Translations under genes and position numbers: made by a program
In this document: one piece after another, positions 3,398 through 64,000 of the stretch
Layout of the letters: every line of letters starts with the position of its first letter
How positions within the stretch are numbered: position 1 is the stretch's first letter
From: an uncultured Clostridia bacterium
GTDB taxonomy: Bacteria > Bacillota > Clostridia > UBA1381
Length of the DNA stretch: 64,000 nucleotides
NCBI GenBank assembly: GCA_947631235.1
Contig: CANRKO010000012.1
Span: 1 to 64,000, forward strand
Direction: 5' to 3'
The notes under the pieces: model-generated
What the model was told of the DNA's origin: nothing
Seen by the model: only the letters and a program-made list of their open reading frames with translations
Database searches by the model: none

Positions 3398-3423
3398 ATA
3401 TGGAATTTTGGAAAGTGAGATTA
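3367..3423 (-). repeat. Right arm of ~58-bp inverted repeat
   Basis: Reverse complement of 2335-2393. It covers the terminator, the 3' UTR and the stop codon of the 2717-residue protein gene. Confidence 0.9.
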
Positions 3424-11574: not shown

Positions 11575-11674
11575 TTAATCTCTCCCTTTCCTTTTTTTGT
11601 TTTTTTTGTTATATTTGCGGGCGAGGTCTGTTCAATCGGCATTTTGAACAGAGTACACCCGCCTACATATTAAC

Positions 11675-11703
11675 ATTGTAACATAATTTCCGCAATGTTT
11701 CAA
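11675..11703 (-). promoter_or_regulatory. Promoter of the 2717-residue protein gene
   Basis: TTGAAA (11698-11703), a 17-base spacer and TACAAT (11675-11680) on the minus strand. This leaves a ~95-nt leader before the ATG at 11574. Confidence 0.6.
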
Positions 11704-11770
11704 TATTGCGTCAATTTAAATTTGCACAAATTTGTCGTAAGTTTTTTGTGCATTTTGTGACCCCCGTTTG

Positions 11771-11973
11771 TATGACCCCCTCGCGCACATTCGTATGACC
11801 CCCTCGCTGAGGGGGTCTTGCGGGCGAACACGGTTCGCCCCTACGGCGGGACGTCCCGCAAGGCTCCCCTTGAGGGGAGCTGTCGCCGTAGGCGACTGAG
11901 AGGTGGTTTACAAAAATACTTTGCCACCTCTCCGTCATTGCTCCGCAATGCCACCTCCCCTCAAGGGGAGGCT
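11771..11973. repeat. Composite palindromic (MITE-like) repeat, copy A
   Basis: The intergenic gap 11575-12025 is mostly repeats. It holds TATGACCCCCTC units (11771-11819), a GGGCGAACACGGTTCGCCC palindrome (11822-11840), and a larger inverted structure. The larger structure begins AAGGCTCCCCTTGAGGGGAG (11870) and ends CTCCCCTCAAGGGGAGGCTT (~11973), with an internal TCATTGCTCCGCAATG palindrome. It is closely similar to 18026-18208. No ORF was recognised in it. Confidence 0.75.
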
Positions 11974-11984
11974 TACTTGCGCGC

Positions 11985-12013
11985 AAAAAAAGACCCCCGT
12001 GGGGGTCTTTTTT
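11985..12013 (-). terminator. Rho-independent terminator of the CE12-like gene
   Basis: The stem GACCCCC/GGGGGTC is flanked by A and T tracts on both sides, just after the stop codon at 12026-12028. It could work in both directions. Confidence 0.85.
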
Positions 12014-12025
12014 GGTGTGGGTGGA

Positions 12026-41395: not shown

Positions 41396-44011
41396 TTACT
41401 TTACCCACGGATAATACGGTACAAGCGGTTTGGCAAAACGGTTATATATGTCGTCAGCGTCGTCTCTGTTAAGCGTGCCGTCTTTATTGACATCCCATAT
41501 TCTCGCCTGCGTTACCGTATTCGGTGCGCCGGACGCTTTGGCTGTTATGTAATTTCCGTCAAGCGCGTTTAATATACCGTCGCCGTTTGCGTCGCCTATT
41601 TTACCGCCCACAACCATTACATAACGCGTCAGCGTGCCGCCGTCGTAAGTATACGTCACCTTGTACAAACCGTCGCTCACCTCTACGGGATCGCTGCCGT
41701 TTACCGCCGCCGCGCCGTTTACGACCATACCCGGGTCGTTAAAATTCTTTATATCGTTTACGATAACCGTATTCACATCTGCGTCAAAATCCGCGTCTTC
41801 CGTATCGGGTACGGTGAATTTCGGATAATGCGTATCGTTGTATATGCGGCTCGCCTTAAACGCGTTTACTTTACTTTCCCGCTCCGCCTCGACGGACTCA
41901 TTGTAAATCTTGGCGGCGGGCGAGTTGCCCACATTAAGAGACGCGACCGAAGTGATTGTCATTATTGCGCTAAAGTCGTCCGCAAGCGTATAATTATTGC
42001 TTTTAAGCGTGATTACAATATCATACTCACCCGCGGCGGTAACATCATTCGTAAGAGCGCCGCCCGCGTTTCTGTACTGTACGGTATAGTCGTCGCCCTC
42101 CGAAAGTCCGTCGTTACTCGTAACCGTCGCCTTGTGCGCACTGCCGTCGTAGGGGACGGTATTGTTGGTTATGGCGAAGGTGACCGGTTTGGGGCTGACC
42201 GTATACTGATATGACTGCTGTGTTGCGGACGGAGTATAATTATCATTTGTTACTTCAATTACAATATCATACGTACCCGCGTCCGTTACGCTGTCCGACA
42301 AAGTTTCCGACGCACTCTTATACTGTACATTATAATCATCGGGCGATTGAAGGTCACTGTCATTATCCACCGTTGCCGTATGTTGTGAACCGTCATATGT
42401 TGTACTGTTATCGCTTACGGTAAACTTTACCTGTTTCGGGTTTACCGTGTACTGATACGACTGCTGCGACGAGGACAACGTATAGTTATCGTTTGTAACT
42501 TCAATGACAATATCATACGTACCCGCGTTCGTTACTTCATTTGACGTATGTTCGTCCTTATCCCGATATGTAACGGTGTAATCGCCATCGGTAAGACCGC
42601 TGTCGTTTGCCACAGTTGCCTTATGAGGCGAACCGTCATACGTGGTACTGTTATCGCTTACGGTAAACGTTACCTGCTTTTTCGTGATTTCAAATGTGTT
42701 ACCCGAGACCGTGCCCATTGTATAGCCTATACCGTCGTTAAGTGTAATAACAACGGTGTACGTTCCCACTTCGGTAGGTTCTACGGAGGTTAAATGCTCT
42801 GCGTCATCGCTCTTATAATACTTAACCGTGTACTGCTCGGGAGTAAGCTCGCAATCATTGGTAATTGTCGGATACTGCGCCTCACCGCTGTACTGCTTTA
42901 CCGCGTCGCTTACCGTGAAATTGGCTGTCCGTTCGCGCACGGTTACGGTCGATGGAGTGATCGTTCCCACGTCGTACATTTCCGCATCTTCATCCTGCAG
43001 CGTGATATGCACGGTATATGTACCGACACCTTCGGGTTTATTGTGCATTTGACCGTCTTTTTCATACTGAACGGTATAATGCGTTACGTCCTCGCGTGAC
43101 GGCTTGTACGTTCTGTTCCACGTTTGACCGACATAGAAATTGCTCGTATCATCAAGCGTAAAATCCACACGGTTACGCGCTATTTCAAAGGCTGTACTGT
43201 TATTCTCCGGTGTCGCGAAATTATTATCCGTAATGGTACATGAAACATGATATATACCGGGTTCTGTCGGCGGAGTATCGGAAGAATACTCTACATTTAT
43301 GCCTTCATAATGCAAAGAATAGCTTTGGGGAGTCGGCGTACCCGTAACCGTACAGGTCGGAGCATGCTGTGATTTATCATAATTAAACTCCGTATTTGCA
43401 TATGAAATATTAACCGTGTCGTTTTTATTTATGTATAAATGCGTTTTATCCATTGAGCCAAAAGCATAGCCTGCCGATGTAACGTTAATATTTATCGGGT
43501 AAGTTCCGACATCCGTTTTGGTTTCACTGCCGCCATAGGTTACGGTAAAGTCAATTCCTTCTGCGGGCGAACCTTCAAGGTACGGAGATACTGTAACTTT
43601 ATGCGGTGAACCGTCATAATTATAGATATTATCTTTAATTTTAAAATCAACTAGTAAAGCGTGAATTGGCAGTCTGAATTTTTGTTCAACCGACGCGCCC
43701 GCACTGTCCTCTACTTTTATTCTTATATTACTGTATGTAGTGCCTCCCTCCGTCGGAACTCCCGAATATGTTCCGTCAGATGATAATGAGAGTCCGTTTG
43801 GATATAAGTATGCACTGGACGGGTTGGCAAGTGAAAATGTATAAGGCGGTGTGCCGCCTTGCGCTTCAAATTTAACCTCATAATGAGCATTTGATGTTGC
43901 GGTCGGGAGCAAAGCTTTTGTTGTAAACGCCAAATCATCCGCCGCATGAGCGCACAATCCCACAGCGAACACTATTACAAATACCGCGAAAAAAGCGGAT
44001 AATTTTTTCAT
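41396..44011 (-). CDS. P6: secreted MBG-repeat protein with C-terminal dockerin
   Basis: 871 residues. The ATG at 44011 follows AGAGGG at eight bases; a GTG three codons earlier is also in frame. Signal peptide MKKLSAFFAVFVIVFAVGLC. Residues ~25-110 form a putative Ig (He_PIG) domain (GLSLSSDGTYSGVP). Six or seven MBG-type modules follow to ~700, each with YDGSPHKATV and AGTYDIVIEV motifs; the last three are almost identical. A short GNSP module (LNVGNSPAAKIYNE) precedes a canonical dockerin with two calcium loops, GDANGDGILNALDGNYI and WDVNKDGTLNRDDADDI. The dockerin should dock to a cohesin partner. The gene ends 32 bases before the P7 ATG, so the two are probably cotranscribed. Confidence 0.85.
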   Translation of the reverse strand: MKKLSAFFAVFVIVFAVGLCAHAADDLAFTTKALLPTATSNAHYEVKFEAQGGTPPYTFSLANPSSAYLYPNGLSLSSDGTYSGVPTEGGTTYSNIRIKVEDSAGASVEQKFRLPIHALLVDFKIKDNIYNYDGSPHKVTVSPYLEGSPAEGIDFTVTYGGSETKTDVGTYPININVTSAGYAFGSMDKTHLYINKNDTVNISYANTEFNYDKSQHAPTCTVTGTPTPQSYSLHYEGINVEYSSDTPPTEPGIYHVSCTITDNNFATPENNSTAFEIARNRVDFTLDDTSNFYVGQTWNRTYKPSREDVTHYTVQYEKDGQMHNKPEGVGTYTVHITLQDEDAEMYDVGTITPSTVTVRERTANFTVSDAVKQYSGEAQYPTITNDCELTPEQYTVKYYKSDDAEHLTSVEPTEVGTYTVVITLNDGIGYTMGTVSGNTFEITKKQVTFTVSDNSTTYDGSPHKATVANDSGLTDGDYTVTYRDKDEHTSNEVTNAGTYDIVIEVTNDNYTLSSSQQSYQYTVNPKQVKFTVSDNSTTYDGSQHTATVDNDSDLQSPDDYNVQYKSASETLSDSVTDAGTYDIVIEVTNDNYTPSATQQSYQYTVSPKPVTFAITNNTVPYDGSAHKATVTSNDGLSEGDDYTVQYRNAGGALTNDVTAAGEYDIVITLKSNNYTLADDFSAIMTITSVASLNVGNSPAAKIYNESVEAERESKVNAFKASRIYNDTHYPKFTVPDTEDADFDADVNTVIVNDIKNFNDPGMVVNGAAAVNGSDPVEVSDGLYKVTYTYDGGTLTRYVMVVGGKIGDANGDGILNALDGNYITAKASGAPNTVTQARIWDVNKDGTLNRDDADDIYNRFAKPLVPYYPWVK
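42180..42690 (-). repeat. Tandem ~245-bp coding repeat in P6
   Basis: Successive MBG modules are nearly identical at DNA level; for example the stretch around 42205-42300 recurs around 42450-42545. This indicates recent tandem duplication. Confidence 0.75.
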
Positions 44012-44060
44012 ACATGACACCCTCTTTCGGTTTGTGTTTTGCTTAATTTATGTTGTCATA

Positions 44061-44232
44061 TTTCCGAGAACATCGTCAAAAAACGACAATATCCTCGGAA
44101 ATGCAACAACACGGGGCGATAACGCCCCGCATTATTACACTTCGCATACGCGTTAATATGCAGGGGGATGAGCGGCTCCGCAAGAGCCGCTCATGCGGGT
44201 TAGGAATGCAACGTCAATGCGTTGTTCCTTAC
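44061..44232 (-). other. Cluster of four hairpins between P5 and P6
   Basis: Consecutive palindromes are TTCCGAGAACATCGTC with its partner (44062-44100), CGGGGCG/CGCCCCG (44112-44129), ATGAGCGGCT/AGCCGCTCAT (44168-44194) and an AGGAA-AACG/CGTT-TTCCT stem (44202-44229). None has a strong T-run. They may stabilise the P5 mRNA end or partly terminate it. No clear promoter for P6 was found here. Confidence 0.5.
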
Positions 44233-44245
44233 GAATTATGCGTTA

Positions 44246-47200
44246 TTATTCTGTGGGATTGGTAACTTCCCCGGGGTCGGAAACAGGAGATTCCTCGGGA
44301 GTCTCCTCACCCTCCGGCGCAGGAGTTGCCTCTCCTTCGGGTGCGGGCGTTTCCTCCGCATCGGGTGCGGGTGTCGCTTCCGCATCGGGCGCGGGCGTTT
44401 CCTCCGGAGCGGGAGTTACCTCAGGTTCGGGCGCCTCGGCGCTGCTGTTTACCTGTCTCTCGTTAACCGCGAGTATAATATTGCTTTCAGCCCAATAACC
44501 GGATATATCGGTCGGGGTGAATGTTACGATCGCTGTCGACGGAGCGAGAACGTTGTTGATCATCGTTACAGCCTCGGCTCTCGTCAAAGGCGAATACGGA
44601 GCGAACGTTCCGTCCGCGTAACCGGAAACCACACCGCGTGTAGCGAGCGTCGTTATGCTATCCTTAGCCCAGTTATCAGACGTTACATCCGTGAACATAT
44701 CGTCCACAACAACGATGTCATACTTCTGCGCTCTTGTGATTACAGCCGCAAGTTCGCCTCTCGTTACCTGATTATCGGGTCTGTATGTGCCGTCCTCGTA
44801 GCCGCTTATCACATTATAATTTTCAAGATAACCTACATACTTATTATACCAAGCGTCGTCCGCAACGTCGGGGAATGACGAATCATACACACCGTCGGGA
44901 ATATCGTCGCCGTTTATAAGTCTCGCTATCATCGACGCAAGTTCCGCTCTTGTGATATTGTTATCGGGCAGGAACGTGCCGTCGTCATAGCCGGACGCGT
45001 AAGGCTTCGTGTACTCCGTGTCAATCAGAGGAGCGGGCGTGGGAGTCGGAGTCGACGGTGACGACGGAGCGGGCGTCTTGTCGGGAGCGGGTTTAACCGT
45101 AATTCCCACAGACTTCTGAACGCCTCCAACGTTCACGGTAATTCTTACCTCTCCTTCCTTCAAAAGCTTAACGTTACCGTTTTCATCTACCGTTGCGATA
45201 GTTTCATTGGTTGACTTCCATGTCGGCTTGCTTGTTGTTCCGGTGATTGTCGGATTGAGCGTCAGCGTTTCGCCTACGTAGCCCTCAAGATTTGACTCGG
45301 GGAACTTGACGGTCACGCTGCTTCCGCCGCCACCGCCGCCGCCACCGCCGCCACCGGTGGTCTGCGTCATGTAAAGTTCTGTTTCCGCTTTAAGCGTAAA
45401 CGGATATTCAATCTTCGTCTTACCTTCCTTATCGGTGTAATACGCCTTAAATCTCGACGGTTTAGCGCCCAAGACGCCCGTTGAGGAGTTAAATCCGTTA
45501 TCGTCCGCAACGGATGTCACGTCCGTGTACACCTCGGCAAGCTTTGTTGTCGAATTTACCTTATAAACAACCACATGGTTCTTTAACGTTGTTACCGCAG
45601 CACTTCCCGCAGGTGACGGATTGTGGTTATCGTCGCCCTTCTTTCTTGCCTGTACGGTATACTCCTTGCCCTTTTCAAGATTCTCAAAGTTCGGCTCTGC
45701 AACCCAGTCCGTGCCGTTGATTGAGTATTCAAGCGTATCGTCCTTAACGTAACCGTTCTCGGTGTCGGGAACGATATTGTTCGTCTTGGGATCAACCTTT
45801 ACCTTCGGAGCGGCAGGCTCGTCTTGATCAGCCTTGTTGATCTTACCTGTAGACTTAGAAGATATATCATCCTCAATCTCATAATTCTTTGCAGCGTCTC
45901 CCGTGAGAGTTACATCGCTTAACGTAACTTCCTTATCGGTATCGCTTGCGTTTGCGTCGGCAAACGTCGCCTTAAATTCAAGGGTCAGCTTGCCTTCGTC
46001 CGCAGTTTCTACGCCCGCGGGGTCTGCTACCGTGCCGCTGTATGTATTGTCACCGTTATATTTTTTCTCGATACCGAGGGTAACATCCGACAGCTTAATC
46101 TTTTTCTTGTTGGTCGTAATCGCAACGCTTGTTTCCTTGCCGCCGAATGCCAGCTTTAAGGTCGCCGCGCCGCATTCAAGGTCAACCGTGCCTGCACCGT
46201 CGGCAGCCGTAATCGTCTTATCGGGTGTGGTTGAACCCGTGGGATATACCAGCGTAATTATGCCGCCCTCGGCGATAAACTGCTCCCATGTGATCGGTGT
46301 TGCGGTCGTTCCTTCATAGTTAAGCGATACCATCATACCCGTTAAATCAAGCTTCTCGGGATATGTGTACGTTACCTTAGGCTGTGTCGTAACCGTAATG
46401 CTATCCAAATTCTTCGGCTTTACACTACCCTTACCGGTGATTGTCGCGCTTGTATCAAGTACGTAGTTGCTCGCCGCAGCGCCGGTAAGCGGAGTTGTCG
46501 CGTCTTTCGTTATCGTTACGGTTACATTGTCTTGCGGCGTTCCGTTCACATCGTTCTCGCTGTACTCATAACCGTAATTGAAGATAACCTCGTCGCCCTG
46601 AAAAACCGCATCGCCTGTGTTTGTCGGCGTCAGGTTGACTGTTTGTCCCGTCTTGGTTCTGTTTGCCGTATCACCCTGAGTGATGTTCGGAACGGTTACT
46701 TCAATCGTTGTAATCTTCTTTTGCTCGATTGTACCTTTAAGCGCGGCAAGTGAAGTCGGATCAAGCTTTAACGTATAATACTTGTTAAAATCTGCAGCCG
46801 CATCACCCGCAGCGGTTATTGTGCCGCTGAATGAAATAGCCTTGTCCGAACCCGCGTTCGCGTCCGCATATGTGAACAAGTCGGCGGTCGTAGCGGTAAT
46901 GTCCGCATACGTTGTTTGGTCTTCGGTCAGCATATCTGTCGTGGTTACTGTGAGCGTCGGCGTGTCTGTTGTTTCAAGAGCGGTCGTCTTGTCATACGTC
47001 TTTGAAATTCCGTCCGCCGGAGCGGCTACCGTAACTTTTACTTCGATTTTCTGTACCTTTAATTCAAAATGTCCTGTCGGATCGCCCGCGCCGGCATTGA
47101 GTACCGTGTCGTCGGTGGTAATGCCCGTATTTCCGCCTTCAACATAGAATTGCAGGTGCTTTCCGTTCATTTCGGGCGTAAGCGTCGTATCCTTATCAAT

Positions 47201-49366: not shown

Positions 49367-49391
49367 TTTGTCGTTTCCTCCTTGTTAACTC

Positions 49392-52300
49392 TTAATTTTG
49401 CGGTAATGCCTTATAAAATTGATCTATTCCCGTAGTAACCTTAGACATAATTTCACTGGCATCATTATTATTAGCAGTATAATTTTCATCTGTAACAGTA
49501 TCTGCTATTCTAAATTTATACAGGCTGTGTACACCTACACTTGCAAAATAACCTATGTTAGCCATGATTTCAGATGCGTCGTTGTTATTTATTGTATCAT
49601 TTGCGTCGATATAAACATCTCCGCGTCTGGAAATGGCTATTACCTTACGCGTCTGCTCGACTGTATCTTCTGTAATCGGGTCTGTAAATGTATACTTCAT
49701 TTCATATACATCGGGACGTATATCATAGTCAACAAAGTTTACAAATACATGATTATTACCCGTGGCAGTTTCAGACGGATTGTCTGTTGTAAGTTCATCG
49801 TCTGTATACTTAGCAAGTCCGCCCTTAAAGACTTTCATGCTAAGGCTGCTTGAAACAGAACTGTCTGCTACCGGCTTATCCATAGAATCGTAAGCTGTAA
49901 ATCCTACGTCCTTAAATGCCTTTCTCTGGAACACGAACATCGCATACGGGTCTTCGTCGCCGTTATAATCCTCGTAAGTTGTCCACGCATTTGTATAGTA
50001 ATCCAAATTCGCAGTTACTCCGCTGAACTTATGTGTTGACTTAAACGCCGTTACTGCAGCCTGTTTTGCCTCTTCGCCGTCATAGGTTTCATCGTCGCTC
50101 ATAATCATGCCGACAGGCGAGTTACCGTAATTCAGTTCAACCCTTGCCGTTGCATACTGCAATATATCGAACTCATACTTTTCCGATGTTGTGCCGTCGG
50201 GAGCGGTAACGGTGACTTCAACCTTAGTTGACGAGTTTGTATCGCTTTCGTCGTCATACGTTGTCTGCTCGGGCTTGAATGTAAACGTATATTTGCCGTC
50301 TCCATCAGGGCCAGAGACATCAGCCGGCTGACCGTTTACCTCGACCGTAACCGTTGAACCGGGCTGCGAGGGAGTAAGCTCGCCATACACGTTCTCCGTT
50401 TCGTCATCGTCAACAATCAGATAATGCTTTTCGGTGTCAGGATCGAACTTCTGATCCGGCTGCTTTTCCCACCGCTCATTCGCGAACGGAAGATCGTCGC
50501 CGTCCGAACTGTCCTTCTTAAATACCGCGCCGCTGCCGGTGCCGTCGTCGCCGGGCTTTTTAAGTGACGCATCGTCGCTGAGAACATACACGGCGTATAC
50601 CTCTAACGTTGAAGTACCCTCTTCCGGCACAGTGTCGACCGTAAACATATTAGCCTTATATGTGGTCGTCAAGTCGCTTGCTTTATAATCGTTTGAAATC
50701 GACTGTTCCGCAAAATTCTTGTCCGTTGACCATCCACCAAACATCTTGCTCTCGGGCGCCTTATCAATCGTAGGTAATGTTGTCGGCGCAGGATCGGCAT
50801 CCTCACCGTTAACCTTTTTAACAGCTCCCTCAGTTGAGATTGGCTTCTTTGCCTCTACCGTATAGGTAACATCGTCAGCTTTATCGGCTGTCTTTGTATC
50901 TTTAAACGTTACCGTCCACTGCGCGTCCTTATATACCGCATATATATTCAGCGGTTCGCCTGTACCGGCAGGAATATCGGTTGTGGCGGTAAATTCATGC
51001 TCGCCTGTCTTTTCCTGCTCATTATCGTACGTTACAAACTTATCAATCGTCTTTCCTGTGGGGGGTGTGAAATCCGTACCCTCCTGAGGCAGAGTTTTTG
51101 AGTTCAAAGTCAAGTTCGTCTTTGCATCGGCGAGTTTTTGCGGCGGTGTGGGCGTAGTAATATTAACCGTTACATAGTCCTTCTCATGCGCTGTATCGTC
51201 TTTTACAGTACCATCACCGTAATTAGCATGAACTACACGCGATGTGGGAACAATATGCAAATCCGCGTCTCCGCCGTCTCCCGCAGCCTTATCGCTAACG
51301 GTTCCGACCGCAAAGTTGCTGTTCTCTACAGCGGTAATAACTATATCATAGTTACCGAATGCTTGCGGCATAGTATTATCCGCCGTGCTGCTATGGTCGC
51401 TCAGATTTTCAAATTTTACCTTAATGTCGTCGCTTCCGTCGCCAAACACGTCTATTGACGGTTTCGGCTCATCTGTACCATCAGCAATCTCAATCGTCAC
51501 ATTTGTAATACCCGATGGAACATTATCGTTCGCAAGATACTGATAGTTGTTTGATACAACATAGTTAATTGTCTTTGCTTTTATTTCAAATTCATTCTCA
51601 AAAGTCGTCGGCTCATAGATAAGGAATTTTTCTTTCAAAGCTGCTTGTCCTTCATCAGAAATACTCAAATCCATATCGTATTTCATGGCGTTTGTCGGAC
51701 TCTCAACGGTATCTTCTTGCCCTTGTTTCGTATATGTAGCCTCCAAATACGATAACGGGATAGGATCCGGAACCAAGTTGGTTTTTGAAGAATCCTCTTT
51801 TAAGGTAACTTTTACGTTTCCTTCCGTCAGCGGCGTCTGTTCCTTTCCGTTATACTCAAATTCTGTCTCATCAAAGGATATGTCTATTGTACCTTTCCAC
51901 ATAGCTGTCAAGCTAAGAGACTTGGTTATCGGAGTATCCTTTTCTACTTTTTTGAACTCTTCTCCTTCTTTATAGTACCAACCTTCGAATGTATAATTAT
52001 CTCTTGTAACCGTAGGCATATCTTTGCTTTCGCTTACGTCGCCTATCGTTTGATTTGCATAAAGAGTCACTTGGTCTATTGAGTTCGGCGTACCGCCGTT
52101 TGGATTAAATGTAACCGTTACCTTATCCGACCAATGCGCATAAAGGATGATTTCTCCTTTCGTACCATCTTGCAAAGAGGGGTCAAGATCACTGTTAATC
52201 ACTGTCGTAGAATCAACCTTTTTGCCGTCTTCTTGACCTTGCGGTTTTGTATACCAACCGTCAAAGCCCTTGGTATCATGAGTCATGTCTGCCGGATTCG

Positions 52301-54191: not shown

Positions 54192-54222
54192 CTTCGTTCC
54201 TCCTTTTATTTTTTATCAATGA

Positions 54223-56223
54223 TTAATTAGGTAGTTTATTATAGAATTGCGGTAATCCTCTGGTAACATTTGCCATAATTTCAGTAGCATCATTGTTATT
54301 TATGGTCAAATTATCGTCTGTAACAGTATCCGCTATTCTAAATTTATATAAGCTGTTTGCGGTTTCTCTTGTAAAATGAGTGACATTCGCCATAATTTCG
54401 GTAGCATCATTATTGTTTACAGTATTATTTGCATCTATATACACGTCACCGCGTTTGGAAATCGCTATAACCTTGCGGGTTTGTGTTACAGAACTATCTG
54501 TGACAGGATCTTCAAATGTATAAGTCATGTCATACACATCCGGACGTATGTCATAGTTTATAAATTCAGTAAACTCGTGACCGTTGCCTGTAGCTGTCGC
54601 TTGTATATCAACCGCATTGTCCGTATCATCATACCTAGCAAATCCGCCTTTGTATGACTTCATTGTTAAGCTGATAGACACATCAGTATCTTGTACCTCC
54701 TCCCCTGTAGAATCATAGGCGGTAAATCCCACGTCCTTAAAGCTTTCTCTTTGGAATACGAACATAGCGTAGGGGTCTTCGTCGCCGTTATAATCTGTGC
54801 CGTCTGCGCCTTTGCCTTTGTAGCTTGTCCACGCGTCCGGATAATACGTTAAGTCTTTGGTAACTCCGCTGAACTTGTGATTTGATTTAAAATCATCTAT
54901 CGCCGCCTGCTTTGCATCATCACTGTCATAGGTTTCATCGTCGTTCATAATCATGCCGACGGGAGAGTTACCGTAATTCAACACTATCTTTGGTTTCAGC
55001 AATCGTCGTATGTAGATGGTATATGTGGTTGTTCCGTCGGAGACGGTGACGGTATTGCTAAAGCCGCCGTTCGTTTCCTTATCCAATTCGGTTAAGGCGA
55101 ATACGTCCGTTTCGTAGTCAAAGTCCTCTTCATCGCTCTCGCTGACCGAAACTTCCTCACCGTTAGCCTTTACCGTCGGCGCGGCGGACGCTTTAAGCCC
55201 CAGCCTAAGTTCGTTTACGTCGTTTGGAACGGAAACATAATATTCCTTATGGTCGGATAAAAATCCGTCATCCGTTAACTCGTTGCTTTGATACAGCGTA
55301 TATTTCGTCACAACCGGTTCCGGCGGGTCTGCCTCCGGCGGTGTTGTACGCGTGAACGGAACTATATCTGTAATTGTTCCGCCGATACCGAACAGTGATA
55401 TGTCACGCTCAAAGCCGAATAAATTTTTCAAGTTTGTTTGGTCGTCAGGGTCTTCCACGGTTGCTTGCCATGACGCGTATGGGTCTGTTCCGTCCGTACC
55501 GGAGCCTATGTTAAACGTCTCCGGCGCACGTACAAGGCTTAGTACCTCAGTACTCGTGTCCTCGGGTACGTCCACAAGCTTGAACGGCAATTTCAGAAGG
55601 TACTGCTTGTCCGCGGTATCAAGTTCATAGAAAACCGCGTTTTCCGAATTTAACGTCGTTTCCCGCGACGCCACACTCACAACGCAGGTTCGCCACGGCT
55701 CATTTTGCCTGTCGGTCTTTGTGATGTTTTCTCTGTCTGTGGCAAAAGTGTCATACTCCGAGTTATGCACCGAAACAATGTCATAATATTCGGAGGACCA
55801 TATGTCGTTGTTCCCCAATTCCAGCGCTTCCTGCCACTCGTTAGCCGAATCCTGTGTGCTTGGACTTGAGGATTTATAATACGGTATTACATAATCCGAA
55901 TTATACTCAAACGCAATTTCGAGCGAGTATATTCCTTTTGTGAACAATTCCAAATCGTTCACGTTATCCACCGCTACACCGACCCAAAACTCATTTCCCG
56001 CGGAGGCGCCGACATCGCTCTGTTTAAAGTAAGCGTCGCGCTGTGTACTCGTCTTCTGCGGCGTTTCGCCCGAGCCGAGAAATTCGACTGTCAGGTGGCG
56101 CGTAATCTCCGCCTGCGGCGATATGCCGTTCTCGGCGGAAACCGGCGTAACTCCCGGCAACGCCGATAATACCGTTGAAACCGATACCGCGCCGGAAAGT
56201 ACCCTTTTTAACAAGCTGTTCAT
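54223..56223 (-). CDS. P3: secreted cohesin-like N-domain, cadherin-like, GNSP module and degenerate dockerin
   Basis: 666 residues with signal peptide MNSLLKRVLSGAVSVSTVLS (cleavage near VSA ~29). Residues ~40-290 align with the P4/P5 N-domain (NEFWVGVAVDNVNDLELF, IAFEYNSDYVIPYY, LLKLPFKLVDVP). A cadherin-like beta-sandwich (~310-410, ending TYTIYIRRL) leads to the GNSP module (~413-580) and a dockerin-like end with two NNNDATEIMANV helices. It is the shortest member of the family and shows the minimal architecture. The ATG overlaps the P2 stop (TGATG), so translation is coupled; GGAGG sites lie just upstream within the end of P2. Confidence 0.85.
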   Translation of the reverse strand: MNSLLKRVLSGAVSVSTVLSALPGVTPVSAENGISPQAEITRHLTVEFLGSGETPQKTSTQRDAYFKQSDVGASAGNEFWVGVAVDNVNDLELFTKGIYSLEIAFEYNSDYVIPYYKSSSPSTQDSANEWQEALELGNNDIWSSEYYDIVSVHNSEYDTFATDRENITKTDRQNEPWRTCVVSVASRETTLNSENAVFYELDTADKQYLLKLPFKLVDVPEDTSTEVLSLVRAPETFNIGSGTDGTDPYASWQATVEDPDDQTNLKNLFGFERDISLFGIGGTITDIVPFTRTTPPEADPPEPVVTKYTLYQSNELTDDGFLSDHKEYYVSVPNDVNELRLGLKASAAPTVKANGEEVSVSESDEEDFDYETDVFALTELDKETNGGFSNTVTVSDGTTTYTIYIRRLLKPKIVLNYGNSPVGMIMNDDETYDSDDAKQAAIDDFKSNHKFSGVTKDLTYYPDAWTSYKGKGADGTDYNGDEDPYAMFVFQRESFKDVGFTAYDSTGEEVQDTDVSISLTMKSYKGGFARYDDTDNAVDIQATATGNGHEFTEFINYDIRPDVYDMTYTFEDPVTDSSVTQTRKVIAISKRGDVYIDANNTVNNNDATEIMANVTHFTRETANSLYKFRIADTVTDDNLTINNNDATEIMANVTRGLPQFYNKLPN

Positions 56224-59200
56224 CAGCCTCCACCTCCTTGCGTTAAATTAGTATAGAATGGGTCTAATTTATTTGCTTTTATAAAGTTCGCATCAATAGC
56301 GTTTATAAAACCGTCCTTGTTTGCGTCGCAAATGCGGTACTTAAACAGCCTGCCGCCCGACGTATAGCCCGAAACGCTGACCTCATCGGCAAGCAAGTCG
56401 GTAAACCTGTTCATTATCGCCGAAACATCGGACACGTCCGCATTGCCGCTTATATTCACATCACCGAGTTTACTCAAAATAATGAGCGGTTTTGAAACGG
56501 AAATTTGCTGTCCGTCAAAATCGGCGAAAGTATAGGTCAGCATATATATATCCGGACGTATACGTCTGCCGCTGAGCGATGTAATCGCGCCCGATGCGGA
56601 TTCTGTAAGCGTAATTTTCAGCGGGTCGTGAGAAATGTTGTTAAAGTCGTCTATCGTACCGTTCATGTCCTCTCCCGACGCCAGCAGCGGAAATACGCTT
56701 ACCGTTTTCGTTACCTTGCCGCTTACCTCTGTGCCGATCGATGTTTTTAACTCCTTATATCCGGGGTCGGTAAACGACGAATAATCGGTCACAAACAACG
56801 CTGCGTCGTTCTCATCATAATTATCGTTTATCCATGCTTTGGGCGTGTAAACAACTCCGCTCTTTGCGCCCTGCGGAACGGTTTCCTTAAACTGACGACC
56901 GTTGTCAATAAATTCTTGCTTTACGGTGTCTTTATTTTCAGCCGTTATGGTGTCATCCCGCATAATCAAGCCGTACGGTGAGTTTCCGTAGTTAAATTCA
57001 ACCATTTCCGCCGCGGTCAGTTTCCTGAATATATGTATCGTGTATTCTTTCTTGCCGGGTCCGTCGTCCGGATCCTCATATTCAAATGTAAGTTTTACTA
57101 TATTGTCCACGGGGCTTAGGTCAAGTTCGATTTCATCCGATATATAGTAATCGCTGTCGCCCTTCGTCGGGTCACCGAGCGTATCGGTAGATTCGCCGTG
57201 CTCGTGAGTAATCGTTGTTGTTTTTTCCGCTATCTCCTCTCTCGGCTTGAACCACAGCTTAACTTTCTCCATATCATTCGGCACCGCAACGTAATATTCA
57301 TTCGTTATCGGGTCGTAATCAATATGTTTCCATTTGCTGTCGTAAAACGGCTCGCTCGGATCGCTTGCAGTTTCATACTTTGCATCCTTTACGTACAGTT
57401 CTGCCGCACGGAGACGCGCAACAACAGTTTCCTTAAAATTTGCTGTTATTTCCACATCATGAGCCGGCATGAAAAATGTCTGTTTGGCTTTTTCGGCGGG
57501 TTTAAGCACAACATCCTCGTTCTCGGTACTCCAATTGACAAATTCACAGTCCGTATTGGGAGTCGCGAGTATCGTGATTTCTTCGCCTGCCTTTGCGGTA
57601 TACGTCTTTGTCTCCGTTTCGGCTTTGCCAAGATCCGACGGCTCCGCTTTCAAAACGATTTTATATACCGGTTCTGCCGTAACCTCAAAGGATACCTTGA
57701 AACTGTCGAGCAATTTATTGTTTGAGTAAATCGACACGGTCGAAACGTATTTCCCTACGGGAAGTCCGTATTTTGTCGATATGTCAAATTCTGTCCGTGC
57801 GTCTTTTTCAAGCAGTCCAATCGGCGCTCTCTTAAGCAGAAAAGCCTCGGCGCTCGGTGTTTCGCTGTCTGTAACCGTGCTGAGCGCGATTACCGCCGAC
57901 AGACCGTATATATCTGTTTCACCCGTATTATGTATCGTAAATGTGTGCGTTTGAAGTTCATCGTAATCATAGCCCACTTCTTTCGGGTCAAACACAAAGT
58001 CATCTATATGTTCTATCGCATCTTCGCCCATGTTTTCGGCTGCAAGATACTTTATTTTCACTTTTATTTGTTTGTCTTTATTGGTTACTTCACCGTAATT
58101 TGTGTAAGAAGTATCGGAAAGTATTCCCTCAATCTCAACGACGCTGCCTGCCGTTTCGGGTTCGCCGCTGATTGTGTCCCATTCATCCACGGTGAAGGTT
58201 TTCAGCACGCCTTCCTCGTCACCGTCATAACCGCTGTAGGTTGTTTTAATGCTGTTTACACCGTCAATGAGCGTTATCGTCGTCGGAGGGAGTCCGCCCG
58301 CCTGTATCGGGAGCATTGCCGACATCTCGCGTGAATAGTCAAACTCGTATATGTCGCTTACGTCGTTCGGCGGCAGATAATAGTTATTCCTCGGATTTGA
58401 GGCAAAGTTTACGTACTCGCTTTGGTTCTTTTCCGGCTCTTTGGATGCTATGCTGAACTCGCCCGCTCTGCTTCCGAGATTTATAAGACGCGCAAGCAGT
58501 TGTTCTTCGGGATCTGTCATGTCGGGATCAAACGTTATTGTGGCAGTTCCGTCCTCGTTTACAGATACGGTATATTTTGTTCCCACCCCGTCAATTTTTT
58601 GTCCGTTCGGCATTTTTACTGTAAATGTTGTGCCTTCGGGTATCTGTGAGCCGTCGGTATTTTTCACCGTGACGGTCATAACTCCGTTGTCGTCCGTTAC
58701 CGCCTCGGCTTCGATTGCTTTCGGCATCTCGTCGGCGGTTGCCACGACGTATCTGTTGGCAATTATCGTCGGCGTAGGTTCGGATACCGTCAACCACGGA
58801 TAGCTGCTCAGCGAGTTGGCTACATTATTTATCATTCCCTCAATTTCATATGATTCGGGAGGGGACTCGCCAAAGCCGTCGGGTAAGGTGGTAAGTCCCA
58901 CACCGCTGCCTTTTTCTCTGTACCAGTCTATAGTAATCTCAGCCAATCCGCAGTTGGGGGTATACGTATCAAGCACGGGTCTTGCCGTTTTAGGGAGTTG
59001 CAAATCATCAAATGTGGCAGGAAATCCTTCCATGCCGACATAGTATGTTTTGTTTTCATTTTCAAAATCAAAATCAACAAGACTTACGGGAGTCACGTTC
59101 ACCGTTACGGAAACCGAAATGTTCTCGTTAAACGGCTGCTTTACCGTATACGTTCCGCCTTTGGGATCCCATGAACCCGTTACCGAACTTTCCGAGCCGC

Positions 59201-60176
59201 TCCATTGGAATGCGGCAGGAAATTGAGTTCCGTCGGCATATTCAAGGGTCAACACCGACGCTTTCTCATTGAGATACCTGAATAAGTCGTCGACGCTGCC
59301 CGTATTGTAGATATCATAAGCGGAAACGGTAAATTCCGTATTCTGCGGCTTAACCGATATAAGATCCGCGTCTATGCCCATGTTGTACTCTATATTTCTC
59401 TCGGTACACGGATACCACTCAAGCCACGCGACGTTTTCAACCGGATATATGTAATACGACATATGTAAGCCGAATTTGTTTATAATGTCGTCTTCGGTGG
59501 TTATGTCGTCTCCAAGCATAGCCGAAAGAGGGACAATTTTCACAATATCTTTAAGTTCGTCCTCCGAAAGTCTTGCAAGTCCCACCGGATCAACCACTCT
59601 AAAGCTTATTTGACCGAAGGATACTCCGTCTTCCGTTTTGTCCGCCAGTATTACCGGCTGATCATAAACCGCGCTGTCTTCGTCCACGCTTTTGTATTCA
59701 ATATATTCACTGTTTATAAAACTCTCCGATTGCGGAACAAAAGTCATAATGACTCGGGAAATGTCGGGGTTTGCCGTGCCAATAACCATCGGGTGAACCG
59801 GATCAATAATTGAGTTTGCATTATCGTCTATAAAACTGTCAATCGGGAAAGCGTCAGTATTCTGTTTAAAATATTTATGGTCATGGTCGTTTGCGCCGGT
59901 CGGCGCCACAATAGCTAAGTTGGTATCCGCGTCGGAAAGCTGAATGTATTTGTTGTCATATTCAAAACAAAATGAAATGCCGGGGGTTTCTATGTTTTTT
60001 AGTGAAATGTCGATAAAACCCTGCGGCGTATGTGAGGTTTGATTTTCAACAATATGTATGCCTGAAAAGGACAGCGTGGCGTTGGTGGCTTGCTGCTGTG
60101 CTGCAAAAACGGCGGCAGACATCAAAACAAACGCGAAAACCGCGCCTATCGTGAAAAATTTGCGATTTCGTATCAC
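56223..60176 (-). CDS. P2: secreted protein with cohesin-like N-domain, InlB-like and cadherin-like modules, GNSP module and dockerin
   Basis: 1317 residues from a GTG start with GGGGGG seven bases upstream. Signal peptide ~1-28 (FFTIGAVFAFVLMSAAVFAA). Residues ~30-220 show the strand pattern of a cohesin-type domain (LSFSGIHI, GFIDISLKNIETPGISFCFE, FGQISFRVVDP). Middle modules include a possible cell-wall strand (GVMTVTVKNTDGSQIP), a CARDB-like segment (THTFTIHNTGETDIYG ~735), an InlB-like repeat ending MPAHDVEITANF, and a cadherin-like domain ending YTIHIFRKL. The GNSP module (FNYGNSPYGLIMRDD) precedes a dockerin whose second loop CDANKDGFINAIDANFI is canonical, while the first (GDVNISGNADVSDVSAIM) is degenerate. 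First gene of the P2-P5 operon. Confidence 0.85.
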   Translation of the reverse strand: MIRNRKFFTIGAVFAFVLMSAAVFAAQQQATNATLSFSGIHIVENQTSHTPQGFIDISLKNIETPGISFCFEYDNKYIQLSDADTNLAIVAPTGANDHDHKYFKQNTDAFPIDSFIDDNANSIIDPVHPMVIGTANPDISRVIMTFVPQSESFINSEYIEYKSVDEDSAVYDQPVILADKTEDGVSFGQISFRVVDPVGLARLSEDELKDIVKIVPLSAMLGDDITTEDDIINKFGLHMSYYIYPVENVAWLEWYPCTERNIEYNMGIDADLISVKPQNTEFTVSAYDIYNTGSVDDLFRYLNEKASVLTLEYADGTQFPAAFQWSGSESSVTGSWDPKGGTYTVKQPFNENISVSVTVNVTPVSLVDFDFENENKTYYVGMEGFPATFDDLQLPKTARPVLDTYTPNCGLAEITIDWYREKGSGVGLTTLPDGFGESPPESYEIEGMINNVANSLSSYPWLTVSEPTPTIIANRYVVATADEMPKAIEAEAVTDDNGVMTVTVKNTDGSQIPEGTTFTVKMPNGQKIDGVGTKYTVSVNEDGTATITFDPDMTDPEEQLLARLINLGSRAGEFSIASKEPEKNQSEYVNFASNPRNNYYLPPNDVSDIYEFDYSREMSAMLPIQAGGLPPTTITLIDGVNSIKTTYSGYDGDEEGVLKTFTVDEWDTISGEPETAGSVVEIEGILSDTSYTNYGEVTNKDKQIKVKIKYLAAENMGEDAIEHIDDFVFDPKEVGYDYDELQTHTFTIHNTGETDIYGLSAVIALSTVTDSETPSAEAFLLKRAPIGLLEKDARTEFDISTKYGLPVGKYVSTVSIYSNNKLLDSFKVSFEVTAEPVYKIVLKAEPSDLGKAETETKTYTAKAGEEITILATPNTDCEFVNWSTENEDVVLKPAEKAKQTFFMPAHDVEITANFKETVVARLRAAELYVKDAKYETASDPSEPFYDSKWKHIDYDPITNEYYVAVPNDMEKVKLWFKPREEIAEKTTTITHEHGESTDTLGDPTKGDSDYYISDEIELDLSPVDNIVKLTFEYEDPDDGPGKKEYTIHIFRKLTAAEMVEFNYGNSPYGLIMRDDTITAENKDTVKQEFIDNGRQFKETVPQGAKSGVVYTPKAWINDNYDENDAALFVTDYSSFTDPGYKELKTSIGTEVSGKVTKTVSVFPLLASGEDMNGTIDDFNNISHDPLKITLTESASGAITSLSGRRIRPDIYMLTYTFADFDGQQISVSKPLIILSKLGDVNISGNADVSDVSAIMNRFTDLLADEVSVSGYTSGGRLFKYRICDANKDGFINAIDANFIKANKLDPFYTNLTQGGGG

Positions 60177-60225
60177 GATTATGCCCCCCTATCACACCTA
60201 CTCTATATTATTGTACTTATTTACA

Positions 60226-60254
60226 ATTTTACTACATATTTTAGTAAAAGTCAA
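60226..60254 (-). promoter_or_regulatory. Promoter of the P2-P5 operon
   Basis: TTGACT (60249-60254), a 17-base spacer and TAAAAT (60226-60231) on the minus strand, ~45 bases before the P2 GTG. The rest of the gap 60255-60411 is AT-rich with no gene recognised. Confidence 0.7.
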
Positions 60255-60411
60255 TGCTAATATGCCGTTTTGTTGGTAATTTTGTTTACTTTTTTGTATC
60301 TTTATTTTAGTATTTGTTACATTTTGCCATATTTCTCTGCGAATGAGCAATAAATCCGAAAAATCCGGCTTATTTATTAAGATTAAAATATAAATTTATT
60401 TTTGAGTAAAA

Positions 60412-60450
60412 ATATAAAAAAACAAAACCGGCGGATTGCTCCGCCGGTTA
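60412..60450 (-). terminator. Rho-independent terminator after P1
   Basis: The perfect stem ACCGGCGGA/TCCGCCGGT with a four-base loop (60427-60448) is followed by TTTGTTTTTTT on the minus strand. Confidence 0.92.
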
Positions 60451-60462
60451 AGTTATTCTGTT

Positions 60463-63400
60463 TTAAATTGCCTGCAATTTAACCACGTTTTTGTTGGCTG
60501 CCTTTGTTCCGTATGTGGAAGAAGGTTGGTTGTCGAATATGACGGTTGTCTTGCTCATATTCATACCTGCGTAGATAAGGTCTCTCGTCGTGATAGAGCC
60601 GTCCTTATCAAAGTCACAGTCTTCTCTGTAAATCCTGCCGCCCACGAAGTTAATCCACAGCACAATTCTCTGATTACGGCTGTTGACGTAGTACGCTCCG
60701 CTCGGGTTATCCTCGGGACCGAACGTGTATTCAACGTAATCTGTCGCCGCGTCTACCGCAGATTCAAGTTCGTGTACGTCGCCGTCTGCGCTGTCCGCGC
60801 TGTCGGTGTCGTCAGCCCTGTCTATGCTGTCAGTGCTGTCTGCGCCGCTATCAGCCTCAGGCTCGGGCTCGGACTCGTTTTCAGCATCGCCGCCGATTAC
60901 TTCTTCTTCCGACTGAGCGTCCGAATTATCGGGCGTTTGAGCCGAGTCATCTATAGCCGTCTCGCCGCCGGGTACTTCCGTATCGTCGGGAACGGTTTCG
61001 GTGTCATTAGGCTCGCCGCCTTCGGGCGTATTCTCGTCAGCGTCACCGTCATTCGGTTCGTCGACAACGTCGTCCGTCTTGTTTTCGCCTTCGGTCGGAG
61101 CGTCGTTATCAGCCTCAGGTTCCTTGACGTCGGGTTCTTCAATGCTCGGATCTCCTATACTCGGTTCTCCGATGCCGGGACCTTCGATACTCGAATCGCC
61201 TTCGGGAACAACGGGTTCACTGTTATCCTGCTGCGGTTCGTCGGTGTTTGGAGCAGTCTGTTCCGCGGTGTCTTTTTCCACTGCGTCATTCAGCTTGTCG
61301 CGTTCATCTTGTTCAAGAGCAATGTTCTCAGCTAACTCCTTGTATACTACGGGTTCGTTTATCGTATCTCCGTCATTCACTATACGTCCCTGATATGAGT
61401 AGAATATCTGGTTGTACAAGAAGATATTTATAAGGTTGATGTCCGCGTAGTTTACAAGTTCTTCACTGTCGTCGTAATCCGTTACGTTACCTGGCTGAAT
61501 TCTTACCAGCTTGAAGTAGTATGTCGCCGGTATGAATGTCTTTTCAGCCACTACATTTTCTATTCTGTAGTTTAAGTAGCCGTCTCTCTCAAATACGACG
61601 TCATATATGCCTTCATTGAGCAGCGGAATTTCAAACTTACCCGTTACGGACGATTGTGTTTCCATATGACCGTCTTCATCAATCGGAACGTATTCCTCCG
61701 CAACTTTGTCGTACAGTTTTATTGTGGCGATGTGGTTTTCCGCCGCAACCGAGAGAACGTTACCCGTGACGGTAGACTGCATAATAGCCTCTTCCTCATC
61801 GGTGTCTCTCGTTACGGTTACATAGTACTTACCAATCTTCTTTTCACCGTCGACTGTGCTTTCCACTGTGAATTCAAAGTCAAACGTCTTTTGACTGAGC
61901 GCAAGTTCGAATGTATGAGCCATGTTGAATGTTAAAGCAGTGGTATCTGTGGATGTTCTCTTAATCTCGCTCTCATCATCCTTCCTCATCGTCAGAGTGG
62001 GCTTATACTCACCCGTGATAAGTTCAAACTCAATTTCTGCCGCAAGCGGGTCAATGAGTATGTTATAAGAACTTACCTTTCCGTTGAATGTTGTCGGAGC
62101 AAGATACTGATCAAGCAGTTCATACTCGTTCGATTCAGCATCTCTCGCTATCAAATTGTTCAATGTAGCGGTGTTTTCTCTCAATATCTTAAGCACATAA
62201 GTGAATGCTGTGCCGTCCTCCTCGAAGCCGACCGTTACAAAGATGAGGCTTTCTTTCTCATTCATGAGAGTGAATGTATGGGACATCTCCGATGGTACAG
62301 CGGCTGTGCTTACTCCATTGTATGTCATTACTACATCGTCATACAAATTCTCAGCAACTGCCGAAACTGTTATCTCGTTCTCATTCGGGTTAATCTTTAT
62401 TGCATAGTCGTACTTTTCGGGATTGAACGTATCAGACCATTCACCCTTATCCGTTTCAAGAGATGCAAGTCTCGAAACACCGTCAGCACGGCTGTCTCTG
62501 TGTACGGTAAGTTTATATTCACCGACTTCCTTAGTATCAGCCTCTGTTATGAAGATTGAAATAACTTCCGTCGCGTTATCCGTCAGTATAAATGTCTCCG
62601 GCAGAACAATCTCTGTCTCAACACCGCTTGTAAGCGGTATCTCGGTACCGTCGCTGAGCTTAGCGTAAAGCACGTCATTCTTGTCACTGTCATCGTTTCC
62701 GCTCTTGAATGCGGTTACAGTTAAGGTCAGCGAGTTATCGGTATAGCTGATTGTTGTCGAGTATGTAGCCTTTTCACTCTCAAAGTCAGGCGTAAGCTCA
62801 TATAAGCCGTCCTTTTCGCCTGTTTCCTCTGTGTCTGTTTCATCATAAATCTCAAGATTCTTGATGAATACATCGGCGAGAAGATCCTCACTGCGTATTA
62901 CGTGAAGAACGTATATTCCTTCCTCTCCGTCAACAGATACCTTGACATTCACGGTAAACTCGTCTTGGTCAAGCGACAGGTCTGTGAACTGTCTTGTCTT
63001 TCCGGATACATACTCTTCGTCATCAATATTCATACTGATGATTTCAATTCCCTTGTCCTCATACGTATGCTCCGTAAATACGGTAAACTGCTCTGTTTGC
63101 GGTCCTATGAGAACGTCGTACTCTCTTGTAAGAGGATCAAACGACTTCTTCATAATAGCGTTTTCCGTCCACAAATTCTTGAGAATAGGCGCGTCCGTAT
63201 TGTATACGGTTACTTCATACTCATTCACAAGTTCGTATCCGCTTGAAGCGAACTTCGTTACCCGGAACTTGAATACAGCCTTTCCGCTCTCGCCTATATT
63301 CTCGGCGATGTAACTGCCTAAGCCGTCGATTAACGCGTAATCGTTAAGTTCCTCGTCAAACAACTCGATATACGCCTCATCGTCTTCGGACGATGCGTAG

Positions 63401-64000
63401 AGATACGGCGTATCGGAATTGTTTGTGATTTCGTAAGCAAATACCTTATTGTCAAAGGTTGTGAAGAATTTAGCGTCGCTGCCTGTAGGTTCGCTTGACG
63501 GGTCAATCTTAATATGGTCGATATACGGCTCATAAGGCTTAGCGGCGTCACTTTCGTTATAAACCACATAAGCTTTGCTGTATACTTTACCCGACGCTGT
63601 TGTATGTCTGATTGATATATCAAAGCGTTCCTTTTGGGTTGTCATTGCAAACTCTGTGTCCGCATCGTTTTCGACCTCAACACCATTGATCGTTATAACA
63701 ATCTCGTCGTCCGAGTTGACCGAGGTATGTACCATAATCGGAATTACATCGGTTTCGTCAGCTACCGTGAAGGTTTGTACCGGCACGCTGCTGAAGTTAT
63801 CGTTTGTGTTAATGGTACCCCTAAGTTCGTCTCCGGCGCTCTCTTTAAGTATTGTTAATGAGTATCGCTGTAATGTTGAGCCGTTACGTACGGTTATAAT
63901 GTTTACAGTCTTGCTGTCATCGTCATTGAGAGGTATTACGCCTACGCCGCTTACAATAGCGTCCTTAGCCGCAGCCGACGCACTGATTGAAACCTCCGTC
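60463..64000 (-). CDS. P1: cadherin-like repeat protein with acidic linker and split dockerin, 5' end outside the window
   Basis: The frame is open from the right edge to the stop at 60463, about 1179 residues; the first in-frame start-like codon (GTG at 63786) is internal. At least six cadherin-like beta-sandwich repeats of ~90-100 residues fill the first ~700 residues, each with a FNPEKYDYAI-type entry and a YKLTVHRD-type exit. A carboxypeptidase regulatory-like domain (TVTGNVLSVAAENHIATIKL) follows. Then PGNVTDYDDSEELVNYADIN resembles a first dockerin helix with an enlarged loop. About 200 residues of Asp/Glu/Pro-rich linker lie before the second canonical loop CDFDKDGSITTRDLIYAGMN near the C-terminus. 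The protein is exported by inference. A strong terminator separates it from P2. Confidence 0.8.
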   Translation of the reverse strand, partial: TEVSISASAAAKDAIVSGVGVIPLNDDDSKTVNIITVRNGSTLQRYSLTILKESAGDELRGTINTNDNFSSVPVQTFTVADETDVIPIMVHTSVNSDDEIVITINGVEVENDADTEFAMTTQKERFDISIRHTTASGKVYSKAYVVYNESDAAKPYEPYIDHIKIDPSSEPTGSDAKFFTTFDNKVFAYEITNNSDTPYLYASSEDDEAYIELFDEELNDYALIDGLGSYIAENIGESGKAVFKFRVTKFASSGYELVNEYEVTVYNTDAPILKNLWTENAIMKKSFDPLTREYDVLIGPQTEQFTVFTEHTYEDKGIEIISMNIDDEEYVSGKTRQFTDLSLDQDEFTVNVKVSVDGEEGIYVLHVIRSEDLLADVFIKNLEIYDETDTEETGEKDGLYELTPDFESEKATYSTTISYTDNSLTLTVTAFKSGNDDSDKNDVLYAKLSDGTEIPLTSGVETEIVLPETFILTDNATEVISIFITEADTKEVGEYKLTVHRDSRADGVSRLASLETDKGEWSDTFNPEKYDYAIKINPNENEITVSAVAENLYDDVVMTYNGVSTAAVPSEMSHTFTLMNEKESLIFVTVGFEEDGTAFTYVLKILRENTATLNNLIARDAESNEYELLDQYLAPTTFNGKVSSYNILIDPLAAEIEFELITGEYKPTLTMRKDDESEIKRTSTDTTALTFNMAHTFELALSQKTFDFEFTVESTVDGEKKIGKYYVTVTRDTDEEEAIMQSTVTGNVLSVAAENHIATIKLYDKVAEEYVPIDEDGHMETQSSVTGKFEIPLLNEGIYDVVFERDGYLNYRIENVVAEKTFIPATYYFKLVRIQPGNVTDYDDSEELVNYADINLINIFLYNQIFYSYQGRIVNDGDTINEPVVYKELAENIALEQDERDKLNDAVEKDTAEQTAPNTDEPQQDNSEPVVPEGDSSIEGPGIGEPSIGDPSIEEPDVKEPEADNDAPTEGENKTDDVVDEPNDGDADENTPEGGEPNDTETVPDDTEVPGGETAIDDSAQTPDNSDAQSEEEVIGGDAENESEPEPEADSGADSTDSIDRADDTDSADSADGDVHELESAVDAATDYVEYTFGPEDNPSGAYYVNSRNQRIVLWINFVGGRIYREDCDFDKDGSITTRDLIYAGMNMSKTTVIFDNQPSSTYGTKAANKNVVKLQAI

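Follow-up and report, generated by a model that had tools for sequence, protein, structure and literature searches.

The 64,000-nucleotide window analyzed here (positions 1 to 64,000 of the forward strand of contig CANRKO010000012.1, assembly GCA_947631235.1, from an uncultured Clostridia bacterium) carries seven neighboring long open reading frames on its minus strand, numbered P1 to P7 in transcription order. These genes probably (roughly 70%) encode an enzyme-free, SLH-anchored cohesin-dockerin chain with a definite order, not a cellulosome, in which we infer binding, order, stoichiometry and polymerization from sequence comparisons and predicted folds. Each of P2 to P4 would expose an N-terminal type II-like cohesin and a C-terminal X-dockerin (an X module followed by a dockerin). 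Every X-dockerin would plug into the cohesin of the next gene product, P1 into P2 (the least supported link), P2 into P3, P3 into P4 and P4 into P5. The P3 and P4 dockerins would share one specificity, and likewise the P4 and P5 cohesins, so that P4 could bind P4 and the chain could grow. P5, the last subunit, has SLH repeats in the dockerin's place and would be held by a wall polymer. The outcome would be a wall-anchored fiber, P1-P2-P3-(P4)n-P5, that displays the giant RCC1-propeller protein P1.

Predicted cohesin fold of the N-terminal domains

P2 (56223..60176, 1317 aa), P3 (54223..56223, 666 aa), P4 (49392..54191, 1599 aa) and P5 (44246..49366, 1706 aa), all on the minus strand like every feature of P1 to P7 given below, contain one cohesin-like domain each, at the N-terminus, and no scaffoldin with several cohesins was found among them. 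In P3 this N-domain is accompanied by a cadherin-like module and an X-dockerin, in P4 by Listeria-Bacteroides repeats, a cadherin-like module and an X-dockerin, and in P5 by YDG, Big_2 and three SLH repeats; P2 ends in an X-dockerin. An N-domain of ~250 residues is common to P3 (55390..56133), P4 (53274..54110) and P5 (48497..49285), with 63% identity between P4 and P5 and 24% between P3 and P5 (E 2e-8), which bears out the homology noted in a preliminary description of this locus. The P2 N-domain (59343..60086) is unrelated to these three by simple comparison.

An AlphaFold 2 model of the P2 N-domain was built from four sequences (predicted local distance difference test, pLDDT, 65; predicted template modeling score, pTM, 0.69), and the P5 N-domain of the ortholog in the congener G001 was modeled from 29 sequences (pLDDT 78). 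The top 38 Foldseek matches of the P2 model were all cohesins, with the type II cohesin of SdbA first (E 7e-4, probability 1.00), and its best Z in structure comparison with VIA was 10.9. For the G001 model, the first 35 VIA rows were all cohesins and the first 17 mostly type II, with Z from 8.7 to 7.9 over these 17 and about 150 residues aligned at 3.5 Å. Both domains are thus predicted to have a type II-like cohesin fold, and the N-domains of P3 and P4 are assigned as cohesin-like through their homology to that of P5. The preliminary description had suggested a cohesin-like start for P2 and had named N-domains unrelated to cohesins as evidence against its proposal; the opposite was seen, as both models match cohesins first. 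At the level of sequence profiles, the three related N-domains gave no match to PDB sequences; a profile of 23 N-domain relatives ranked type II cohesins (1tyj, 2y3n) best, but at E 0.13, and the Pfam family Cohesin (PF00963) matched 1 of the 23 relatives (E 0.029).

X-dockerin modules at the C-termini

The C-termini of P2 (56226..57005), P3 (54226..54990), P4 (49395..50144) and P6 form one module family, in which P3 and P4 are 64% and P2 and P3 31% identical. Dockerin_1 matches 12 of 23 C-modules (best E 2e-7), and the X module is recognized by the Ig-like family PF16403 in 14 of the 23 (best E 7e-7). Among the window proteins, the Dockerin_1 matches of P2 (E 0.011) and P6 (E 0.002) both lie below the cut-off, and the P3 and P4 C-modules count as dockerins only via homology to relatives that match Dockerin_1. 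When the C-module profile was compared with the PDB, dockerins were the top matches, and in a clostridial genome from outside the family that is rich in dockerins, the same profile matched the dockerin regions of proteins. Judged by these matches, the four C-termini follow the X-dockerin arrangement known from type II systems, in keeping with the dockerin or dockerin-like repeats first noted there.

The two repeats of the dockerin lie at 54382-54450 and 54265-54333 in P3, where they are nearly identical, at 49554-49622 and 49437-49505 in P4, and at 56403-56465 and 56271-56330 in P2, whose dockerin is asymmetric. Within a genome, the P3/P4 dockerin repeats share 81% identity, as against 28% from one genome to another; the two P2 repeats are 14-36% identical to each other, and the second is 62% kept between genomes. 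On direct reading, the calcium loops of P3 and P4 are two residues below the canonical 12 in the window genome, G001, G013 and G005, and loops are canonical in both P6 repeats and in the second P2 repeat.

Proposed pairing of dockerins with the next cohesin

In phylogenetic trees, the C-modules of P3 and P4 group by genome and that of P2 forms an ortholog clade. The N-domains of P4 and P5 likewise group by genome (with the G013 pair unresolved) and that of P3 forms an ortholog clade, so that the similarity of a C-module mirrors the N-domain of the next protein and not the N-domain of its own. Distance matrices from five genomes gave a Mantel correlation of 0.936 when each C-module was paired with the next N-domain, and pairing within the same protein (P3 or P4 dockerin with its own cohesin) was rejected at r 0.17. 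Across 7,776 possible assignments, all 32 that join the P2 C-module to the P3 N-domain reached at least 0.919, and the best of the others 0.766. This pattern points to pairing of the P2 dockerin with the P3 cohesin, and of the P3/P4 dockerins with the P4/P5 cohesins. The latter reads as one private, symmetric coupling per species, and the P2-P3 coupling as a separate, asymmetric and slowly evolving one. Because P4 bears both halves of the symmetric coupling, it could polymerize.

Comparison with G005, a close relative (flanking genes 95% identical in DNA; one neighbor protein 100%), revealed how these modules change. Identity between the two genomes is 80-92% over residues 1201-1350 of P4 and 30-42% over its C-module; in P5 it is 18-42% over residues 1-300 and 84-100% from residue 301 to 1650. 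From these alignments, the junction of P4 dockerin and P5 cohesin was exchanged between close relatives, with the edges of the exchange at module boundaries. Six genomes (G004, G008, G011, G014, G020 and G034) encode a C-module and an N-domain in one and the same protein, with the N-domain 9-33 residues behind the C-module; one of the fused proteins starts with a P2-type N-domain, which identifies it as a P2-P3 fusion. The head-to-tail idea of the preliminary description is accordingly backed by co-variation, module swapping and fusions, which add an order to it, while binding and the polymer remain inference. As a separate observation, G020 and G014 (loci L039 and L035) encode, between two fused proteins, a 712-748-aa protein with a cohesin-like start, together with a giant protein of as many as 4,960 aa.

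Gene organization and probable wall anchoring

P2 to P5 look like a single transcription unit. A terminator-like hairpin (10-bp stem followed by a T tract; 60426..60449) lies 3' of P1, and a promoter-like site (TTGACT-17-TAAAAT; 60226..60254), a consensus match only, lies 5' of P2. The stop of P2 and the start of P3 share one base (TGATG), the P3-P4 and P4-P5 gaps are ~30 bases each, and a gap of ~225 bases with hairpins follows P5; the hairpin and promoter-like site, the tight spacing and the gap together suggest this unit. The putative unit comprises the same set of genes that bears the serial N-domains and C-modules. The order P1 to P5 is conserved in the congeners G013 and G005, and the order P2 to P5 in G001 and G002, where the contigs of both end nearby.

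The SLH repeats of P5 (44570..44995; PF00395, E 2.9e-34) stand where P3 and P4, with the same N-domain, have a dockerin, as had been recognized earlier. The genome holds two matches to a pyruvyl transferase of the CsaB type (PF04230) and 69 SLH motifs, which makes SLH anchoring, and with it a role of P5 as the base held by a wall polymer, plausible. Two sortases exist in the genome, and no LPXTG-like motif was present in the last 60 residues of any of P1 to P7. Domain-profile searches of P1 to P7 found no enzyme family, which agrees with the earlier view of giant exported proteins without a recognizable enzyme.

The giant RCC1 protein P1

Within the window, P1 occupies 60463..64000 with its C-terminal 1178 aa. 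P1 is not, however, a protein of ~1,200 aa, as the frame extends upstream to the contig end: with the window joined to the rest of the contig, P1 reaches a length of at least 13,449 aa with its start still missing. Its counterparts in G013 and G005 have at least 13,547 and at least 13,622 aa. The far part contains more than 40 RCC1 repeats (E 0), followed by Big_2 and cadherin-like repeats, and the C-terminal part runs from an acidic stretch through an X module to a split dockerin. The X module (61498..61770), which precedes the dockerin, is carboxypeptidase-regulatory-like (CnaB-type; PF13620, E 0.0015, below its cut-off), and the same family matches the P1 counterpart Q1 at E 2.8e-9. A dockerin end of P1 had been noted before and stands, although its two repeats, as read from the sequence, are far apart: repeat 1 (PGNVTDYDD...VNYADINLINIFL) lies at 61408..61494 and repeat 2 (EDCDFDKDGSITTRDLIYAGMNM) at 60556..60624, 261 residues further on and beyond an acidic insert. 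This layout recurs in five relatives (G013, G005, G014, G020 and G011), and the acidic insert splits the terminal dockerin in all relatives read. That P1 serves in display or adhesion is guessed from its domains; in the setting of gut Clostridia, the giant propeller protein could mediate attachment.

A replicate in a distant family

A five-gene operon of the same plan is found in a distant clostridial family (G269, contig C169, locus L095). Its first gene encodes an RCC1 protein that carries CarboxypepD_reg, has a dockerin-like terminus and, at 1161 aa, is far shorter than P1; the next three proteins each have a cohesin-like N-domain and an X-dockerin, and the fifth is an SLH protein with the N-domain. 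Here the Q3 and Q4 dockerins are 55% and the Q4 and Q5 N-domains 64% identical, and the intervening X modules 23%. In G121, the counterparts are spread over two contigs. C-modules occur in 12 of 70 genomes of the window's family, and a search with the N-domain across Clostridia, as envisaged in the preliminary description, did recover matches, though with a narrow spread (4 of 391 genomes of a class-wide sample). An initial contig scan with three N-domains found nothing, and the P3 alignment gave four named relatives, with rabbit gut metagenome-assembled genomes among them.

Alternative explanations

Several observations weigh against the proposed chain. Pfam Cohesin (PF00963) matches none of the N-domains of P2 to P5, and the alignments behind the two fold models are shallow (4 and 29 rows). 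In G001, a single TAA separates P4 from P5, which share a frame, and the P4 C-module and P5 N-domain were folded as a single chain by reading this TAA as a residue, an artificial read-through; the model folds the X module and the cohesin well, but with pTM 0.51, and the two-domain model had no significant Foldseek match, although the per-chain VIA comparison did give matches. The link between P1 and P2 is drawn solely from position and folds. The short loops of P3 and P4 make calcium dependence uncertain, and for the dockerin of P6 no partner is obvious. Finally, the homogenized stretch in the window genome, G001 and G002 is contiguous or nearly contiguous DNA from a C-module to the next N-domain, so that gene conversion or duplication alone could yield the co-variation in these genomes.

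This last point leads to an explanation from DNA mechanics, according to which the block of C-module, gap and next N-domain duplicates or converts as a unit and no binding occurs in this order. In G001 and G002, 1.8-kb blocks with 70-71% identity in DNA are contiguous, and the block of the window genome is nearly so, as such a process would leave them. In G269, however, the parts that are alike are separate islands, with dockerins and N-domains more similar than the X modules between them, which weakens the explanation there. Conversion between genes also leaves unexplained why two repeats inside one dockerin are kept alike (50-100%), and mutual binding is the known function of cohesins and dockerins; we regard this explanation as unlikely. 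We give little credence to independent surface adhesins, in which cohesin folds would bind glycans or host proteins and dockerins would be calcium modules without serial assembly. Streptococcal antigen I/II and other adhesin domains do come close in rank to cohesin-like folds (VIA, G001 model), and the fast divergence of the locus resembles that of surface antigens. Such adhesins would not account for cohesins and dockerins at opposite ends, the same gene order in two families, the mirrored similarity, or the absence of a dockerin only in the SLH-anchored member. Hardly any credence is given to a minimal cellulosome-like scaffold, in which P2 to P5 recruit dockerin-bearing enzymes from elsewhere in the genome or from other cells. 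SLH-anchored cohesins resemble the anchoring scaffoldins SdbA and ScaC, but each protein has one cohesin, and neither the three Dockerin_1 matches in the genome (contig C10, P6 and P2) nor the four C-module matches (P2, P3, P4 and P6) fall on an enzyme. The cellulosome reading was rejected on this account, although some dockerins could have gone unseen in an assembly that is 86% complete.

Within the ordered chain that we favor, a pilus-like fiber is put forward tentatively, at a little under even odds. P4 would polymerize head to tail, P3 and P2 would be tip adaptors, P5 the SLH base and P1 a tip of >1.4 MDa, with lock and key inherited as a single genetic cassette that is replaced as a whole between species and private to each.

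Relation to known systems

To our knowledge, few known protein contacts are stronger than cohesin-dockerin coupling, which has been seen almost entirely in enzyme scaffolds. Its serial use in an enzyme-free operon, if true, would be a new, sortase-free way to a long surface structure and would explain what some of the many cohesins and dockerins outside cellulosomes are for. Five congeneric species have five different dockerin repeat sequences with matching cohesins. Such co-varying cassettes offer a natural data set on how a tight pair shifts specificity yet keeps binding, and may supply protein engineers with new coupling pairs that are mutually orthogonal. Sortase-built Gram-positive pili consist of an ordered major subunit, adaptor or tip, and wall anchor, and the proposed chain shares this order. 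Unlike in those pili, coupling would be non-covalent and anchoring would occur by SLH repeats, the ends of P1 to P7 lacking LPXTG-like motifs.

Type II cohesin:X-dockerin anchoring is known from C. thermocellum (SdbA and OlpB with the CipA X-DocII) and from A. cellulolyticus ScaA/ScaB/ScaC (PMC4217186). The present proteins share with these complexes the cohesin fold, an X module before the dockerin, an SLH-anchored cohesin base and serial scaffoldin coupling. They differ in that no enzymes, multi-cohesin scaffoldin or carbohydrate-binding module were found in the locus, each subunit having one cohesin and one dockerin; the sequences fall outside Pfam Cohesin, the P3/P4 loops are shortened, and lock and key diverge jointly from species to species. 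ScaB, like the subunits here, bridges two other proteins with its own dockerin and cohesin(s). However, adaptor scaffoldins such as ScaB multiply enzyme binding sites (PMC4217186), whereas here three adaptors would act in series in a linear chain, with P4 predicted to be self-compatible.

Cohesins and dockerins are also used outside cellulose degradation, sometimes together with surface-layer domains (Peer et al. 2009, cited in PMC9012536; ANME archaea, PMC9012536), and the C. perfringens cohesins 2vo8 and 2jh2 are a further non-cellulosomal comparison. These papers list modules, whereas the conserved operon described here supplies partner order, anchor and end cap. Giant proteins of Omnitrophota also carry dockerins on a very large surface open reading frame, nine in one case, proposed to be an adhesin and without described partners (PMC10066038); P1 differs in its single C-terminal dockerin, split by an acidic insert and next to a cohesin operon.

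Other features of the locus

P6 (41396..44020, 874 aa) consists of MBG repeats and a short X-dockerin with canonical calcium loops (41534-41596 and 41435-41497), and no cohesin was found in it. P7 (32976..41372, 2798 aa) has Cthe_2159-like beta-helix modules and also ends in SLH repeats; neither the common N-domain nor the C-module was found in it, and it holds the same position in congeners. Seven adjacent giant proteins had been described previously, and all seven reading frames are present, although the boundaries then given (41396-64000) omit P7.

Beside neighbors at 95-100% identity, P1 to P4, the P5 N-domain and parts of P6 and P7 have strongly diverged from G005 (window 32976-60176), and P6 also differs around residues 451-550, inside the MBG repeats. 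Such divergence resembles what diversifying selection or recombination produces at surface loci. A second cohesin-dockerin pair is encoded elsewhere in the genome (G000, contig C10, 9699-10825), where a protein that combines Big_2 repeats with one cohesin and one dockerin adjoins a secreted single cohesin of 277 aa; the two score above the Pfam Cohesin cut-off. Elsewhere in the window, positions 3421-16030 encode another two large exported proteins, of 2717 and 1334 aa, with MucBP, Flg_new_2 and a weak GDSL-lipase match.

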